A stretch of 37,754 nucleotides of DNA from Omnitrophica bacterium GWA2_41_15 (GTDB lineage: Bacteria > Omnitrophota > Gorgyraeia > Gygaellales > UBA12090), in the NCBI GenBank assembly GCA_919902675.1, contig CAKKRH010000043.1, forward strand, positions 1 to 37,754. The letters are read 5' to 3'. Within the stretch, counting starts at the first letter, position 1; each line of letters opens with the position of its first letter. The notes below the pieces were generated by a model. It was given only the letters and a program-made list of their open reading frames with translations. It did no database searches and was not told the DNA's origin. Of this stretch, positions 31,003 to 37,754 are shown piece after piece. Position numbers and translations under genes: made by a program.

Positions 31003-31866
31003 CTATAGCTTATACTGCAGTTTAGCCGCCTCCACCACATTGCGCATCAGCATAGTTACGGTCAAAGGGCCTACTCCTCCGGGCACCGGAGTAATCCAGG
31101 AAGCCCGCTTAGAGGCCTCTTCAAACTCTATATCGCCGACTATTCTTTCATTTACTCTGTTTATCCCCACATCCACCACAATGGCTCCCTCTTTAATCCA
31201 TTCGCCTTTGATTAAGTTTGCCCGGCCTACCGCGACCACCAGGACCTCAGCCTTTTGGACATGCTCCCGGGTTAGGCCCCGCTCACCGGTAGCGATATGA
31301 CAAACAGTAGTTGTGGCGAACTGCTCCAATAAAAGCAGGCTCAAGGGCTTTCCCACTATCTCGCTGTGTCCGACTATCACTGCTTCTTTTGCGCGCAGAT
31401 TGACTCCGGTTGAACGCAATAACTCCATCACGCTGTTGGCGGTACAGGGAATAAATTTGGCCCGGCCGAAGAAAAGTTTACCTAAGTTTTCCGGATGCAT
31501 GCCTTCGGCGTCCTTAAAGGGTAAGATGTGCCGGGGAACTAAACGCGAATCAATATGGCCTGGTAAAGGCATCTGGATGAAAACAGCCGAAGTATCTTTA
31601 TCGCTATTGAGTGAATCCAGAAAAGAAAAAAACTTATCCTGAGGTATATCCTGGGGGAGCTTATGATGGCGGTATTCTATATCCAGCTCGGCGGCGCATT
31701 TTATCTGGGATTTAAAGTAAACCTCAGCCGCCGGGTTATCCCCAATCTGCACCCCGGCCAAAACCGGGCTTTTGCCGGATGCGGACTTTAGCAAAGCGAC
31801 TTCTTTTTTTATCTCTTCTTTTATCTTTAAGGCAAGAGGCTTGCCTTCCAAAAGCTTAGCGCTCAT
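31003..31866 (-). CDS. folD: Methylenetetrahydrofolate dehydrogenase (FolD), cyclohydrolase Lys replaced
   Basis: 287 residues. The substrate signature GDNPAAEVYFKSQIKCA aligns with E. coli SQIYVASKRKAC; the Tyr is Y50 but position 54, the catalytic lysine of cyclohydrolase activity, is Q (codon CAG). IQMPLPGHI keeps the conserved Gln, and KDVDG reads KDAEG. The NAD(P) site VIVGHSEIVGKPLSLLL is intact, as is the C-terminal PVPGGVGPLTVTML. It therefore probably keeps dehydrogenase but not cyclohydrolase activity. It overlaps fchA by 4 nt (ATGA), and fchA encodes the missing step. Confidence 0.93.
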   Translation of the reverse strand: MSAKLLEGKPLALKIKEEIKKEVALLKSASGKSPVLAGVQIGDNPAAEVYFKSQIKCAAELDIEYRHHKLPQDIPQDKFFSFLDSLNSDKDTSAVFIQMPLPGHIDSRLVPRHILPFKDAEGMHPENLGKLFFGRAKFIPCTANSVMELLRSTGVNLRAKEAVIVGHSEIVGKPLSLLLLEQFATTTVCHIATGERGLTREHVQKAEVLVVAVGRANLIKGEWIKEGAIVVDVGINRVNERIVGDIEFEEASKRASWITPVPGGVGPLTVTMLMRNVVEAAKLQYKL

Positions 31867-32414
31867 TTAAATCTATATTTTAGATCGGTGATTGTTTTTT
31901 TGGTCTGGGAGATAAAGCCTTTATCCTTGATAAGCGGAAGATTAATTATAACATTAAATATCGCGGATTTAAAGCAAGATTTTAATAATTCTTCACCCAC
32001 GCGCACATCGCTGATTAAATACTTATTGGCGATCTTCTTTAAGAGCGGGCAAAGCCCGTATCCCTTCGACGCTAAAACACCTATTTCAAGCGGGACCCGG
32101 GTTGAGGCAATCAGGTTTTTCTGATAAACATCTTCTTTGGCCAGGCGGCTGTTAAAAACCTTTTGATAGGCCCGAACATCCAAATCCACCAAAGACAAAA
32201 ATCTCCCGCGCAAATACTCAGTCTCCTTTAAGGCGGATTTTATCTTTGGCTCCACATCTTTATACTTTTCTTTGCCGACGGTAAAATTACAGGCCATACT
32301 TAACAGCGCGCACCCCAGAGCCCCGGTCAAGGCCGCCGCCGACCCCCCTCCGGGAGCGGGCTTTTTAGCCGCCAAATCATCCAAGTAGGTTTTAAGGGAG
32401 TTGTCTTTATACAT
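31863..32414 (-). CDS. fchA: Methenyltetrahydrofolate cyclohydrolase FchA
   Basis: 183 residues of the formimidoyl-THF cyclodeaminase/cyclohydrolase family: KKPAPGGGSAAALTGALGCALLSMACNFTVG is the glycine-rich substrate-binding start, then a helical bundle with VDLDVRAYQKVFN and ISDVRVGEELLKSCF. It hydrolyses 5,10-methenyl-THF to 10-formyl-THF or the reverse. ATG 32414 has GGTGA about 8 nt upstream; TTG 32423 is a weaker choice. It lies directly beside the integron insert that separates it from fhs. Confidence 0.88.
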   Translation of the reverse strand: MYKDNSLKTYLDDLAAKKPAPGGGSAAALTGALGCALLSMACNFTVGKEKYKDVEPKIKSALKETEYLRGRFLSLVDLDVRAYQKVFNSRLAKEDVYQKNLIASTRVPLEIGVLASKGYGLCPLLKKIANKYLISDVRVGEELLKSCFKSAIFNVIINLPLIKDKGFISQTKKTITDLKYRFK

Positions 32415-32485
32415 ATAAATCAATCACCAAATTCAGCCGCCTTATGGAGCGGCGAAGCCGCGAAACAAGATCAACTACTAATATC

Positions 32486-32543
32486 CAATAACCACAAAAT
32501 TAAGGCGTGGCCATAGGCCATCGCCTTCAACGTATTGTTAAAA
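32486..32543 (-). repeat. attC-type recombination site 2 (58 nt)
   Basis: On the minus strand it starts TTTTAAC (R'', 32537-32543), continues AATACGTTG, forms a stem AAGGCGATGGCC/GGCCACGCCTT with loop TAT and one unpaired base in the 5' arm, and ends GTTATTG (R', 32486-32492). Order, length, AAC/GTT triplets and the extrahelical base match integron attC sites such as those of aadA cassettes. It lies immediately 3' of the DUF2442 gene. R' deviates from GTTRRRY at two positions. Confidence 0.72.
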
Positions 32544-32545
32544 AT

Positions 32546-32806
32546 TTATTTATATGTTAATGGATAATTTTCAGGATTTTCTAAAATTTCTGTGGTTAAA
32601 TCTACATCTAATTTTGGCCAGTATAAATGATGACCGCGTATTAACTCCACATCAGTGATTGATGATATTTTCGCGTCTTTAAACCATGGATATTCGTTAA
32701 AGGAAAGGAAATATTCCTTACCTTTCAAGTATATCCAAAATCCGTGCTCAGAAATGTTAGTTATTTCTGGCTTTAAGATGTTCTTTCCATTTTTTAATAA
32801 TTTCAT
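32546..32806 (-). CDS. DUF2442 protein
   Basis: An 86-residue protein with the DUF2442 pattern: NISEHGFWIYLKGKEYFLSFNEYPWFKDA, then a VELIRGHHLYWPKLDVDLTTE end. The ATG at 32806 has AAAGG upstream; an in-frame ATG at 32824 is possible. It overlaps the DUF4160 gene by about 50 nt in another frame. DUF4160/DUF2442 pairs are common on mobile regions and resemble toxin-antitoxin modules, but no activity is established. Confidence 0.8.
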   Translation of the reverse strand: MKLLKNGKNILKPEITNISEHGFWIYLKGKEYFLSFNEYPWFKDAKISSITDVELIRGHHLYWPKLDVDLTTEILENPENYPLTYK

Positions 32807-33005
32807 TTTTGCGCCTTTCAACAATTTTTTGCAAAGAATTTAATTGTTTCGAGGAAAACCCCGAATAATTTACTAATGCGGTAGTGGGTTCCAACCAAAA
32901 TTTTGCTTCTCCTTCGGGAGAAATAATATGCACATGTATTCTGTTTTCTTCTTTTGAGAAAAAATGAAATCTGTAGTTTCCTATTTTAAATACTGTTGGG
33001 CTCAA
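32757..33005 (-). CDS. DUF4160 protein
   Basis: An 82-residue protein: TVFKIGNYRFHFFSKEENRIHVHIISPEGEAKFWLEP, then the helical RKNEIIKKWKEHL end, fitting DUF4160. It starts with TTG at 33005, supported by AGGAGG 10 nt upstream; a TATAAT box lies just before that. It is translated together with the overlapping DUF2442 gene. Confidence 0.8.
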   Translation of the reverse strand: MSPTVFKIGNYRFHFFSKEENRIHVHIISPEGEAKFWLEPTTALVNYSGFSSKQLNSLQKIVERRKNEIIKKWKEHLKARNN

Positions 33006-33167
33006 AGCTTATTGCCTCCTTTTAAAATTATAACATAATTATTTATGAATTTTACTTATTTTTTATTCATTTCTTTTACTCTGAAGATTCCTTTTAAATT
33101 TACTTGCAACTACATTATATTCAATGCCTTACGCGGAAACGACACTATTTAGTTCAGGTTGGAATTC

Positions 33168-34364
33168 TTACTTTTTTCTGAAAACAACGATACGATTGGA
33201 ATTAGTGCCACGCTCGTTATTTTTTATACCCCAACAATTTGATGTTTTGGTGAATTGCTGAGTATTAATCAATACATACTCAGGCACTAAACCAACCTCG
33301 CGGCCCGCCTTCAACACTTCTAATTCTAGACGAATAGTTCCTTTCCTGACTTCGCCTACTTCGAAAGCAATTAATCCGTCAGGTTTTAAGATGCGGTGTA
33401 ATTCTAAAAGCACGGATTTCATTCGCTCCGTCCAATCTGCTACAGAACGAATCTTCCACATTAAAGAAGCATCAACTGAACTTATAGAAAACCACATTCT
33501 GAGCCAATTGTCTTGAAGATAATCAACGGCGTCTAAAAAAGGCGGAGACGTGACAACTAAATCAACAGAATCTGAATCTATCTGTGGAATATAATCTGCT
33601 GATGCCACAAATAAAATAGGCGCATGTTCGGAATAATCCCTTGGCAATGCATCTTTCAGTAAAGCTTTTGTCTTTTTCCAGATTAGCTCACGCGTATTCC
33701 GATATTCCGGTCTCTGATTTAATTTTAAATTGATCTTTCGCTGACGCTCAACTGAGACGGCTTGATTAGGCGGGAGTGTATAGACGGAAAAGAAGCCAGG
33801 CGAATGGCCGGAAAGCCTACTGATCACCACCATATCAATCCACTCATCAATCGAATCCAAAAGATTCAATTCTCGTCGGTGCGCGAAATATCGCTTCCAT
33901 GACTCAATCTCTCGAAGCGTGTCAGGATGATAGAATTCAAGTAATCCTGTATTCTTAGGCTCTTCGTCTCCTAAAACAACAGAATCTAATCTTTTCTTAA
34001 TACACGCAATAGGGGGAGGACATAGCCTCGCCTTAGCAAGTTTTAGGCAAACAGGATTGATGTCGCTTCCTATAACAGAACAGCTATGCATCCTAGCCTG
34101 TACCAATGTAGTGCCGCGCCCTAGAAAGGGATCATAAACAACACTTCCTTTCTTTGTATAACGTGAAAGAAAATAATCAGGAAGCTGCGGCTTATAGCAA
34201 GCTCGGTAGGAGACTTCGTGGATAGAGTGACAATCCCGCTGTTTAGAAGTCCAATACTCTCCAGCGTGGACAGGAACTACACCACCCTCAAATTCATATT
34301 CCTCCACTCTATCGAGTGCCGTGGTTTCTGCGGAATCAAATAGTAAAGCTTGTATGTGTGCCAT
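33168..34364 (-). CDS. DNA methyltransferase of a type II system (N4-C or N6-A)
   Basis: A 398-residue SAM-dependent DNA methylase. SAM motif YDPFLGRGTTLVQA near residue 76, followed by VIGSDINPVCLKLA, and the catalytic TSPPFLDAVDYLQDNW near residue 286; S/T-PP-F is more common in N4-cytosine enzymes. Final FEVGEVRKGT and the C-terminal strand fit the N4/N6 family PF01555. It overlaps the upstream nuclease-like gene by 29 nt. GC content and intergenic style differ from the Wood-Ljungdahl genes on both sides. The target sequence is not predictable. Confidence 0.82.
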   Translation of the reverse strand: MAHIQALLFDSAETTALDRVEEYEFEGGVVPVHAGEYWTSKQRDCHSIHEVSYRACYKPQLPDYFLSRYTKKGSVVYDPFLGRGTTLVQARMHSCSVIGSDINPVCLKLAKARLCPPPIACIKKRLDSVVLGDEEPKNTGLLEFYHPDTLREIESWKRYFAHRRELNLLDSIDEWIDMVVISRLSGHSPGFFSVYTLPPNQAVSVERQRKINLKLNQRPEYRNTRELIWKKTKALLKDALPRDYSEHAPILFVASADYIPQIDSDSVDLVVTSPPFLDAVDYLQDNWLRMWFSISSVDASLMWKIRSVADWTERMKSVLLELHRILKPDGLIAFEVGEVRKGTIRLELEVLKAGREVGLVPEYVLINTQQFTKTSNCWGIKNNERGTNSNRIVVFRKK

Positions 34365-34926
34365 ATGACAAAATTTTATGGTTAACGGATGCCTCTAGTC
34401 GAACGCTCACAGATGTAGTGGGCTCTAGGAAATCGAGTCGAATATGTTCTACAATAACTACATCGCCTTTTTTGTGATATAAAACAGTAAGGAGTAAATG
34501 GTGTATTGGGCTTTTAAATTCTTTTCGTATTTTTTCCGACGAAGAAGTCAATACTCGACGATTTGAATCATTCGGATTCCAGTCACTTGTCGCTTTCACC
34601 TCAAGAGGAATGCGCAGTCTAGTTTTCTTCTGCGTAAGAACTCGGTCAGGGTAGCCTGCACCAGAGCACTTTCCAAGGTCAAATTTCAACATTTTATCAG
34701 AGAGAATCGGCAAAGTCTTATCCTCGACCTGATTTCCTATACTTTGATTTGAACTGTGAGGCCGAAGCGAACATCGTAATCCGATAATGCTTCCACTATT
34801 TACCGCTTGGCGAATATCAGACTTAATTTTCGTAATAAGTTTCGGTGGCCATGCATTTACGAGTTCAATATGGGGAATTTCTTCCCAAACGAGCAGGTCT
34901 TTATAGTAGTTTTTTAGCGTAGCCAT
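34336..34926 (-). CDS. Predicted type II restriction endonuclease
   Basis: A 196-residue protein with a candidate PD-(D/E)xK site: the Asp in GYPDRVL and, 15 residues on, LEVKAT, with a basic strand between them. The N-terminal part has SIIGLRCSLRPHS. Its 3' end overlaps the DNA methyltransferase gene, the usual form of a restriction-modification pair. I do not recognise a named enzyme. The ribosome site is weak. Confidence 0.62.
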   Translation of the reverse strand: MATLKNYYKDLLVWEEIPHIELVNAWPPKLITKIKSDIRQAVNSGSIIGLRCSLRPHSSNQSIGNQVEDKTLPILSDKMLKFDLGKCSGAGYPDRVLTQKKTRLRIPLEVKATSDWNPNDSNRRVLTSSSEKIRKEFKSPIHHLLLTVLYHKKGDVVIVEHIRLDFLEPTTSVSVRLEASVNHKILSYGTHTSFTI

Positions 34927-34982
34927 TTTACATATTTTTTCGTTTTATTTCCACGGGGCGGGAAAGTGGTTTGTTTTATTTT

Positions 34983-35042
34983 ACCCAACGCCTGAAATAA
35001 GCCGCGCCGCTATGCGGCGGCGGCTTCATTGTGTTGTTATAG
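34983..35042 (-). repeat. attC-type recombination site 1 (60 nt)
   Basis: On the minus strand it starts CTATAAC (R'', 35036-35042), then AACACAATG, a stem AAGCCGCCGCCGC/GCGGCGCGGCTT with one unpaired base in the 5' arm, TATTTCAGGC, and ends GTTGGGT (R', 34983-34989), a perfect GTTRRRY. The pattern is close to class-type attC sites (CAAGCCG...CGGCTT...GCGTTRGRY). It lies 3' of the 35127-36080 gene and before the restriction gene, as a cassette boundary should. Confidence 0.8.
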
Positions 35043-35126
35043 TCTCATTTATTTATACTTTTATGAATATCTCTGATTCTTCCCTTTGGATTGAAATTTT
35101 ATAGCTGAATCTATTTTTCTATTTTT

Positions 35127-36080
35127 TCAGCCGTTATATTTGTAAATTTTCCCAGTTTGATTATTCCGAATTGTACAGGCTTTCTTTTTATACGAATATG
35201 TAAAAAATATTTCAGAATTAATAATAGCTTCTCTTAAAGCTTTCGTATTTCTTTTATAAAATCCCCTAACACTCCAGAAGGTTATTACAAAAGAACTTAA
35301 AAGCCAAAAAATTATTTGATTATTTATAAGAACAAAAGGCAATAAGACCACGGTGCCTATATATCCTACAATACTTATATAATTATTACGAGGATTGAGC
35401 GGATTAGAAAATACGAAGGTTAATCCAACTATAGGAATAGCAAAAAACAGATAATAATTTTTTAAAATTAAAGCAAAAATAATAGCAATAGATAATATAA
35501 TCCAAGGAATTATTGCAAGTATTAAAAGCAATATCTTAACAAACCTAGTGTTAATAAACGTTGCAGCTTCTGTTGCTGCTGAATATTCTATACCAATTGT
35601 ATATTCATTTTTATGAACCGCATCTTTCAACTTTTGAAAAGAATCAAATGGAAAACCTGATATTTCTGAGACGTATTCTAATTTATTTAGTTTACTTAGC
35701 TTTACTTCTATTTTACTTATTGAATCAGAATAATAATTATTTCTAAATGCTTCATTATTTGAATTTTGTTTAATAGGAAAAATCAAGATTAATATAAAAT
35801 ACCAAAATGACTCAATTATTATTAATAATGGAGAAAATATACCGAGAAGCCAGAGCAACAATAGTAAGTAACCAATAACTGTAATAGCACCAAAAACCCA
35901 CCAAGTCAATCCATGTACAGGTGTGTTTGGATTGTAGAGAGTACTAACAAATAAGATTAGCAACAATCCTAAAAATAATAACGAAATATCAACCGATAAA
36001 TATTCTAATGGTTTTGATTCTCTCCATGATTTTTTGAATTGTTTAACTGTTTTATCAAAAGAATATTTGAATCTATTCAT
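35127..36080 (-). CDS. Hypothetical membrane protein, first cassette gene
   Basis: 317 residues, strongly AT-rich and unlike its neighbours in codon use. At least six membrane segments: YLSVDISLLFLGLLLILFVSTL, WWVFGAITVIGYLLLLLWLL, FSPLLIIIESFWYFILILIF, ILLLILAIIPWIILSIAIIF, YYLFFAIPIVGLTFVF and GYIGTVVLLPFVLI, with a hydrophilic stretch around residues 115-175. No family recognised. It is the gene nearest to the promoter pair and the recombinase stump, which fits a first-position integron cassette. Confidence 0.65.
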   Translation of the reverse strand: MNRFKYSFDKTVKQFKKSWRESKPLEYLSVDISLLFLGLLLILFVSTLYNPNTPVHGLTWWVFGAITVIGYLLLLLWLLGIFSPLLIIIESFWYFILILIFPIKQNSNNEAFRNNYYSDSISKIEVKLSKLNKLEYVSEISGFPFDSFQKLKDAVHKNEYTIGIEYSAATEAATFINTRFVKILLLILAIIPWIILSIAIIFALILKNYYLFFAIPIVGLTFVFSNPLNPRNNYISIVGYIGTVVLLPFVLINNQIIFWLLSSFVITFWSVRGFYKRNTKALREAIINSEIFFTYSYKKKACTIRNNQTGKIYKYNG

Positions 36081-36152
36081 ATTAATTTATCATTTTATAA
36101 CATATAATATACGAGTTCGCTTTTTGTGGCAGTTTGCAGTACCCTGAAGCTA

Positions 36153-36180
36153 AGTATAGCATACCAACCAAAGATTTCAA
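36153..36180 (-). promoter_or_regulatory. Leftward promoter, possible cassette promoter (Pc)
   Basis: On the minus strand TTGAAA (36175-36180), 16 nt, then TATACT (36153-36158) preceded by TGC, an extended -10. It points into the cassette genes. Confidence 0.65.
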
Positions 36181-36191
36181 CACGCTTTTAT

Positions 36192-36219
36192 TTGACATAT
36201 TTTACATTTTACCTATAAT
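36192..36219 (+). promoter_or_regulatory. Rightward promoter of the recombinase remnant (Pint-like)
   Basis: Perfect consensus TTGACA (36192-36197), 16 nt, TATAAT (36214-36219), pointing at the 36273 stump. Its -35 box lies only 11 nt from that of the leftward promoter, so the two are back to back. Confidence 0.7.
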
Positions 36220-36272
36220 AGCGTAAAATACGAATTCGCTTTTTATGAGTTTTTGTACTTTTTAAGGTTATA

Positions 36273-36380
36273 ATGCTTAAGGGTATCTTAGCTGACTTTC
36301 AGGAATTCCTTACTTCACGCGGGGGGCTTGCCGATGAAAAGCATGCCCCGTTCTACGCGCGCCGGGTAAGTAAGTTTTGA
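36273..36380 (+). pseudogene. N-terminal stump of an integron-integrase-like tyrosine recombinase
   Basis: ATG at 36273 opens 35 codons ending at TGA 36378: MLKGILADFQEF, then LTSRGGLADEKHAPFYARRV. The spacing of F..FL, EKHAPFYARRVSKF matches the first helices of the SAM-like core-binding domain seen at the N-terminus of environmental IntI/XerC proteins. Nothing recognisable of the catalytic domain (R..HxxR..Y) follows before fhs. It is the only plus-strand gene trace in the window. The match is by eye and short, so confidence is moderate. Confidence 0.5.
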
Positions 36381-36447: not shown

Positions 36448-37754
36448 TCACGATAATCCTACAATGTTTCCCTTTTTGTCAATATCCATCCGTAAAAGCG
36501 CGGGTTTTGAGGGCAGGCCGGGCATGGTCTGCATCTTGCCGCATAAGGGATAAAGAAAACCGGCGCCGACCGAGGCCCGGATGTCCCGCACCGGCAGGAT
36601 AAATCCCTCCGGCCTTCCTTTTAGATTCGGGTCGTGGGACAAAGAGAGATGGCTCTTGGCCATACATATAGGAAGCTTATCGTAGCCTAACTGGCTAAAC
36701 TTGGCTATTTTTTCTTCAGCTATAGGCTCATACTCCACATCCTTGGCCCCGTAAACCTTGGTGGCAATAGTCCTTATCTTATCTTTAATCGGCATATCCA
36801 GAGGATATAAAAACTTGAAATTATTTTTTTCTTTTGCCGCGCTGACTACCGCCTTGGCCAAGGCTATCGCCCCCTTAGAACCCTTGGCCCATACCTCGCT
36901 GACAAAACAGCCGCTGGCTCCGGCAGAAATTGCCTTTTTCTTCACTAATTCAATCTCTCTATCAGTATCAGTGGCAAATCTATTCAGCGCCACAATGCAG
37001 GGAAGTCCGAATAAGCGCACATTTTCAATCTGCTTCTCTAAATTACATATCCCGGCGCTCACCGCCTCTAAATCTTCGGCAACTAAACCTTGTTCCAGAG
37101 GCTTACCGGCAACCACATTAAATCTTCCGGAGTGCATCTTTAAGGCCCGGACGGTTGAAACCATCACCACCGCGTCCGGCTTAAGACCGGAATAACGGCA
37201 TTTTATGTCAAAGAATTTTTCCGCGCCTAAATCCGTGCCGAATCCCGCCTCAGTAACCACAAAATCGGCCAGACGCAGGGCAATCTGATCCGCGATAATT
37301 GAGCTGTTACCATGGGCAATATTTCCAAACGGGCCGGCATGGACCATCACCGGACTATGCTCTAAAGTCTGAATCAGATTGGGTTTAATCGCGTCTTTCA
37401 ATAAGATGCACATACTCCCGGCCAGGCCCAACTGATCCGCGGTTACCGGTTTTCCCGAGAAGTCTTCCGCAACCACCATCCGGCCTAAGCGTTTACGCAA
37501 ATCAGCTAAACCGGTAGTTAAAGCGAGTATAGCCATTACCTCAGAGGCAACCGCGATATCAAAACCGGTATCCCGGCTTATGCCGTCATCTTTACCTCCC
37601 AGGCCAATCTTGATATTGCGCAAGAACCTGTCCGACACATCCAATACCCTTCTTAAATAAATCTTTTCCGGATTTATGTTTAGAGGATTACCTTTAAGAA
37701 TATAATTATCCAAGAAGGCGCAGGCCAAATTATTAGCCATCCCCACGGCATGGA
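36448..37754 (-). CDS. fhs: Formate-tetrahydrofolate ligase (5' end beyond window)
   Basis: ATP-dependent formation of 10-formyl-THF from formate, the entry step of the methyl branch. About 435 of the usual ~557 residues are visible; the frame runs off the right edge, so the N-terminus with the ATP-binding P-loop is not seen. Recognisable parts: HAVGMANNLACAFLDNYI, PVTADQLGLAGSMCILLKDA, GPFGNIAHGNSSIIADQIAL, VVTEAGFGTDLGAEKFFDI, LFGLPCIVALNRFATDTD, and the C-terminal VGAGFLYPLCGKMQTMPGLP. fchA, the next pathway gene, is 4 kb away across the integron. Confidence 0.96.
   Translation of the reverse strand, partial: HAVGMANNLACAFLDNYILKGNPLNINPEKIYLRRVLDVSDRFLRNIKIGLGGKDDGISRDTGFDIAVASEVMAILALTTGLADLRKRLGRMVVAEDFSGKPVTADQLGLAGSMCILLKDAIKPNLIQTLEHSPVMVHAGPFGNIAHGNSSIIADQIALRLADFVVTEAGFGTDLGAEKFFDIKCRYSGLKPDAVVMVSTVRALKMHSGRFNVVAGKPLEQGLVAEDLEAVSAGICNLEKQIENVRLFGLPCIVALNRFATDTDREIELVKKKAISAGASGCFVSEVWAKGSKGAIALAKAVVSAAKEKNNFKFLYPLDMPIKDKIRTIATKVYGAKDVEYEPIAEEKIAKFSQLGYDKLPICMAKSHLSLSHDPNLKGRPEGFILPVRDIRASVGAGFLYPLCGKMQTMPGLPSKPALLRMDIDKKGNIVGLS

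Follow-up and report, generated by a model that had tools for sequence, protein, structure and literature searches.

The locus raises the question of whether two short hairpins, at positions 34983-35042 and 32486-32543 of the window (the whole stretch of 37,754 nucleotides that was analysed), are genuine attC sites, and what kind of element they belonged to. A preliminary description had proposed both as attC sites. From the evidence given below, it is highly probable that the two hairpins are genuine attCs closing two cassettes in a degenerate, integrase-less chromosomal integron of Candidatus Omnitrophota. Integrase-less integrons are already known among gene-capturing elements; for Omnitrophota, no published account of integrons was found in the part of the literature that was covered. 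The element sits between the genes for FTHFS (36448-37746) and FTCD (31863-32423).

Structure and strand of the two attC sites

The first site, attC1 (34983..35042), has its functional top strand on the minus strand. Read from 35042 to 34983, this strand is CTATAACAACACAATGAAGCCGCCGCCGCATAGCGGCGCGGCTTATTTCAGGCGTTGGGT, in the order of R''-like TATAACAA, L'' arm, ATA loop, L' arm and R' GTTGGGT (34989-34983), with the crossover at 34989^34988. The R' box matches GTTRRRY perfectly, and the coordinates and the perfect core given in the preliminary description are correct. The R'' box, CTATAAC, is a poor fit to the consensus RYYYAAC (5/7). The second site, attC2 (32486..32543, minus strand, crossover at 32492^32491), has the architecture of attC1 and a degenerate R' box, GTTATTG, which fits GTTRRRY poorly; it stands as an attC, with the reservation that this box is non-consensus. 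The AAC/GTT cores are found in both sites. Because the surrounding genes lie on the minus strand, this strand is taken as the attC top strand and the plus strand as the recombining bottom strand.

Folding of the bottom strands as DNA had been proposed as a check. The attC1 bottom strand folds at -17.7 kcal/mol (z -4.06; none of 200 dinucleotide shuffles was as stable), and in its minimum-energy fold R'' and R' are paired and one base is bulged six pairs from the base of the L stem. For attC2 the energy is -12.0 (z -4.55 against dinucleotide shuffles); folded alone, its R boxes are unpaired in the energy minimum. The bottom strand of the attC2 orthologue in the congener G002 (L042 3213-3264) forms an R stem of all 7 bp and carries the same bulge, and a bulge at the place equivalent to that of attC1 is seen in the bottom-strand folds of both this orthologue and the aadA1 attC. 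When attC1, attC2, the G002 site and four class 1 integron attCs were aligned, the extra base fell in one column (23) in all seven, and 92.2% of the cells of the aligned structure pair, more than in all 500 shuffles and all slid registers. The claim that both sites keep the extra base in the same arm is therefore borne out by the shared column.

The bulge common to attC1 and attC2 corresponds to the second extrahelical base of known attC sites. Both extrahelical positions (columns 16 and 23 of alignment A2) are unpaired and lie on the R''-L'' arm, the arm on which extrahelical bases are defined and have been shown to set strand choice (Bouvier et al., 2009; PMC2727003). The earlier argument that such bases guide the strand choice of IntI is thus sound. 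The single extra base that had been placed in the 5' arm is there on the minus strand, which is the 3' arm on the plus strand; that there are two extrahelical bases had been missed. On the bottom strand the first of them is C in attC1 and attC2 and G in most attC sites. In VCR assays, a change from G to C at this base caused a mere 2.7-fold loss of integration (Bouvier et al., 2009; PMC2727003).

Covariance scoring, which had likewise been suggested, gave a strand-specific answer. Model R2 was trained on 22 attCs, all from outside the window's genus, taken from class 1 integron plasmid cassettes and from the neighbourhood of integron integrases in Omnitrophota and other phyla; the way these models were built makes their E-values approximate. 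Under R2, attC1 scored 39.9 bits (E 1.1e-6) and attC2 23.1 bits (E 0.0055 in 59 kb), both on the minus strand only. Taken alone attC2 is marginal, since the same score corresponds to E 0.16 genome-wide; its G002 orthologue scored 24.4 bits. In the 59 kb searched there were no other matches at E<=10 than these three, and the best isolated background matches across ten whole genomes reached 16-17 bits. With another model, R1, in which some training sites are reverse-oriented, attC1 scored 47.8 bits on the minus strand versus 23 on the plus strand. In 275 kb of sequence from Omnitrophota loci, almost all of them surrounding IntI, R2 returned 54 array-oriented sites and one reverse-strand echo, and the recovered attCs had the expected orientation wherever the IntI strand was checked.

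It had also been suggested that further copies might be found elsewhere in the genome. There are none in the assembly, where attC1 and attC2 are the sole R2 matches at E<=10 over the whole 1.74 Mb, and copies are present in relatives. A search of the same genome with an Omnitrophota-type attC motif gave one match, which is not an attC. No Rfam family reached its gathering score at attC1, and weak sub-threshold matches to sRNAs there were dismissed as chance.

That the hairpins are intrinsic terminators or dispersed palindromes (REP- or MITE-like) resembling attC by chance is extremely improbable: their G+C-rich stems do lie just 3' of ORFs and in a terminator scan the attC1 stem is picked up on both strands, but the T-run is poor, the covariance score falls on one strand only, known attCs are matched in the extra base, in the R boxes and at the G^TT edges, attC1 shares sequence with plasmid attCs, other copies are lacking in the genome, and the adjoining intI remnant and attI homologue would have to be coincidence. 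Both readings were rejected on the strand-specific score and the context. With scores above background and the bulge kept, the earlier preference for true attCs over terminators is upheld.

Remnant of intI, attI platform and cassettes

Three parts of the element had escaped the preliminary description, namely a remnant of intI, the attI platform and the cassette boundaries. The remnant (36273..36380, plus strand) consists of the first 35 codons of a long-form integron integrase followed by a stop. Its 35-codon open stretch, MLKGILADFQEFLTSRGGLADEKHAPFYARRVSKF, is 80.6% identical over 31 amino acids to the N-terminus of the intact IntI of G076, another member of Omnitrophota (E 3e-19 among 92 integrases). 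The intI of G002 is truncated to the same stretch with the same end point. Next to the remnant is the region of attI and the intI promoter (36081..36272, with no strand assigned), in which the attI crossover lies at 36101^36100 (ATATG^TTAT on the minus strand); this junction is common to the window, G002 and G076. Over 316 bp, positions 36065-36376 are 72% identical to the attI-intI platform of the intact integron of G076 (E 5e-51).

Two promoters are predicted in this region. TTGACA-16-TATAAT at 36192..36219 (plus strand) is probably PintI, as judged from a consensus match only (12/12), and is conserved in G076. TTGAAA-16-TATACT at 36153..36180 (minus strand; 10/12 consensus) is a possible Pc, from which the cassettes might have been expressed; by eye, G076 has a similar motif at the same place, but the case for Pc is weak, since the total count of the promoter scan equals the shuffle mean. 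The region also carries two TACGARTTCG palindrome repeats (36110..36250, plus strand; starts at 36110 and 36229, 119 bp apart). The pair and its spacing recur in the intact integrons of G076 and G090 (L148 8906/9025; L149 16/134), and at about 119 bp apart it spans the attI-intI region in broken and intact integrons alike. Accessory IntI sites or the operator of a regulator are possible roles of these repeats.

All cassette edges are at G^TT (36100, 34989/34988 and 32492), and all ORFs lie on the minus strand and are oriented away from intI. Cassette 1 (34989..36100, minus strand, 1112 bp), bounded by the attI and attC1 crossovers, carries attC1 and an ORF for a 317-aa membrane protein (35127-36080), for which no close relative was found among 367 other genomes of the phylum. 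Cassette 2 (32492..34988, minus strand, 2497 bp), bounded by the attC1 and attC2 crossovers, carries attC2 and four ORFs. One of them (33168..34364, minus strand) encodes a Type II DNA methyltransferase (PADLOC MTase_II, E 3e-133; Pfam N6_N4_Mtase). It is overlapped by a putative cognate restriction endonuclease gene (34336..34926, minus strand), whose product has GYPDRVL...IPLEVKAT, read by eye as PD-(D/E)XK, and has no match in Pfam, PADLOC, NCBIfam or PDB. A hypothetical gene upstream of an Acetobacter methyltransferase was considered as a relative and is not homologous to it. The other two ORFs form a DUF4160 and DUF2442 pair (32546..33005, minus strand; Pfam E 1e-15 and 7e-14), a candidate toxin-antitoxin module (DhiT-like); the NCBIfam match to DhiT is weak and far below the cut-off. 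In G002, the DUF pair and the orthologous attC are present without the methyltransferase and restriction-modification genes. For this reason, cassette 2 probably arose when two earlier cassettes were fused, with decay of the inner attC.

While an integrase was present, IntI would have recombined the folded bottom (plus) strand of each attC with double-stranded attI at 36101^36100. By this step every cassette would have been joined at G^TT, its gene pointing away from intI. Later, the local intI was cut to its first 35 codons. Since intI is truncated, the array should now be fixed, unless an integrase acts in trans.

Integrase search and history of the locus

The assembly of the window's genome (1.74 Mb in 58 contigs) is 80% complete, and an intact IntI gene is absent from it. 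Its only two proteins of the phage integrase family are both short and XerC/XerD-like. No integron integrase above the TIGR02249 cut-off was found in any of nine genomes (this one and eight sampled members of its family), and 18 of 384 genomes in the Omnitrophota sample (about 5%) pass the integron-integrase cut-off. Clusters of attC with no detectable intI nearby occur in the family in G001 (C42), G002 (C43), G006 (C18 and C23) and G005 (C63). Those of G001 (L189 9609-10262) and G002 (L190 2473-3684) both lie near uvrC; they have one 135-aa cassette ORF in common and differ in their toxin-antitoxin-like neighbours.

At the same locus, the two congeners differ from the window. G002 has a different array with a differing attI-proximal cassette. 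It also holds a half attC (L042 2558-2630), of which the 5' arm matches an Omnitrophota attC, TAACAACGCACTACACCTGACTGTTACC, and the 3' arm is replaced. In G001 the element is absent. The FTCD gene of G001 is without the start codon that the window's genome, G002 and G006 have in common, and is joined in frame to intergenic sequence that lies upstream (L041 2942-3040); the left border CTCAAAACTTACTT and the FTCD codons CTTAAAACCTACTT are combined in a hybrid junction. Because the shared start codon is missing, a deletion scar, apparently formed between these two 14-bp repeats, fits better, and the view of G001 as an empty pre-insertion state was set aside on account of the missing start and the hybrid junction.

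The intI truncation is common to the window's genome and G002, and is therefore older than their split. Given that the two share the truncation but differ in their attI-proximal cassettes, either differential loss or an integrase in trans is needed. It is unlikely that the platform is still functional in trans, with an IntI from the missing 20% of the genome or from a population neighbour moving cassettes. The differing cassettes would be expected from such activity, and attI and attC1 look intact; however, differential loss from a longer ancestral array accounts for the difference from G002 without new insertion, IntI is found in none of the nine sampled family members, and the fused-looking cassette 2 and degenerate attC2 suggest decay. 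Action in trans is kept in play because of G076, where a further attI-like region (L201, G076:C3 about 41970-42091) is accompanied by at least three attCs and lacks an intI beside it, the intact intI of that genome being on another contig.

Kinship of attC1 and significance of the locus

The preliminary description had read the two sites as structure conserved without sequence. Structure is indeed conserved, and so is sequence: over 56-59 bases, attC1 has 83-86% identity to the plasmid attCs that follow aac(6')-IIa and catB3 (E between 5e-8 and 4e-9 in 7.3 Gb). For attC2, nothing meaningful was found among plasmids. The catB3 attC has been assigned to a Xanthomonadales-like type, found almost only there (Ghaly et al., 2021; PMC8352920). 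One may ask, then, if attC1 is not a site native to Omnitrophota and marks a cassette newly arrived from another phylum, which we consider conceivable though doubtful. Its identity to the catB3 attC (82%) exceeds that to any of about 41 sampled Omnitrophota sites (best 65%), and the near confinement of the type to Xanthomonadales (PMC8352920) speaks for arrival across phyla. On the other hand, convergence is possible for a site of 60 bp, the compact form of attC1 is also seen in one Omnitrophota site (L152:13944), and the gene of cassette 1 has no nucleotide match to any plasmid. A wider proposal is quite unlikely, namely that the locus is an integrase-free attI array usable in trans, where a single IntI, as in G076, or the integrases of neighbours would act on several Omnitrophota platforms per lineage, and cassettes with resistance-type attCs would be exchanged across phyla.

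We return to the preferred reading of a degenerate, integrase-less integron, which can be placed among known systems. The sedentary chromosomal integrons of Omnitrophota (G076/L148, JADHWR010000050.1) resemble it in the divergent intI and array, the attI/PintI region, the attC orientation and the N-terminus of the long-form IntI, but here intI ends after 35 codons and just two attCs are left. Having two attCs and no intact integrase, the locus falls within CALIN, clusters of at least two attCs lacking an integron integrase (IntegronFinder; PMC9024848). Unlike a CALIN, it retains attI and the intI remnant, so that its origin from a local integron is visible; of the features of a complete integron, attI next to intI is present and an intact intI is absent. 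The attCs of class 1 resistance cassettes (catB3, aac(6')-IIa and aadA1) share with these sites the 60-nt form and the extrahelical positions; they differ from them in the first extrahelical base, which is C instead of G here on the bottom strand, and the cassette genes here are not resistance genes.

These results add integrons to Omnitrophota, complete in about 5% of the sampled genomes and decayed or integrase-less in the family of the window. The locus is an integron caught in the middle of decay, with congeners that have a different array (G002) or have apparently lost it (G001). That an uncultured phylum contains a clinical-type attC is relevant to the question of where cassettes of the resistance type circulate. 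With a putative restriction-modification system and a candidate toxin-antitoxin module, the cargo is defence-like, in agreement with the idea of such arrays as carriers of genes for defence and stabilisation.
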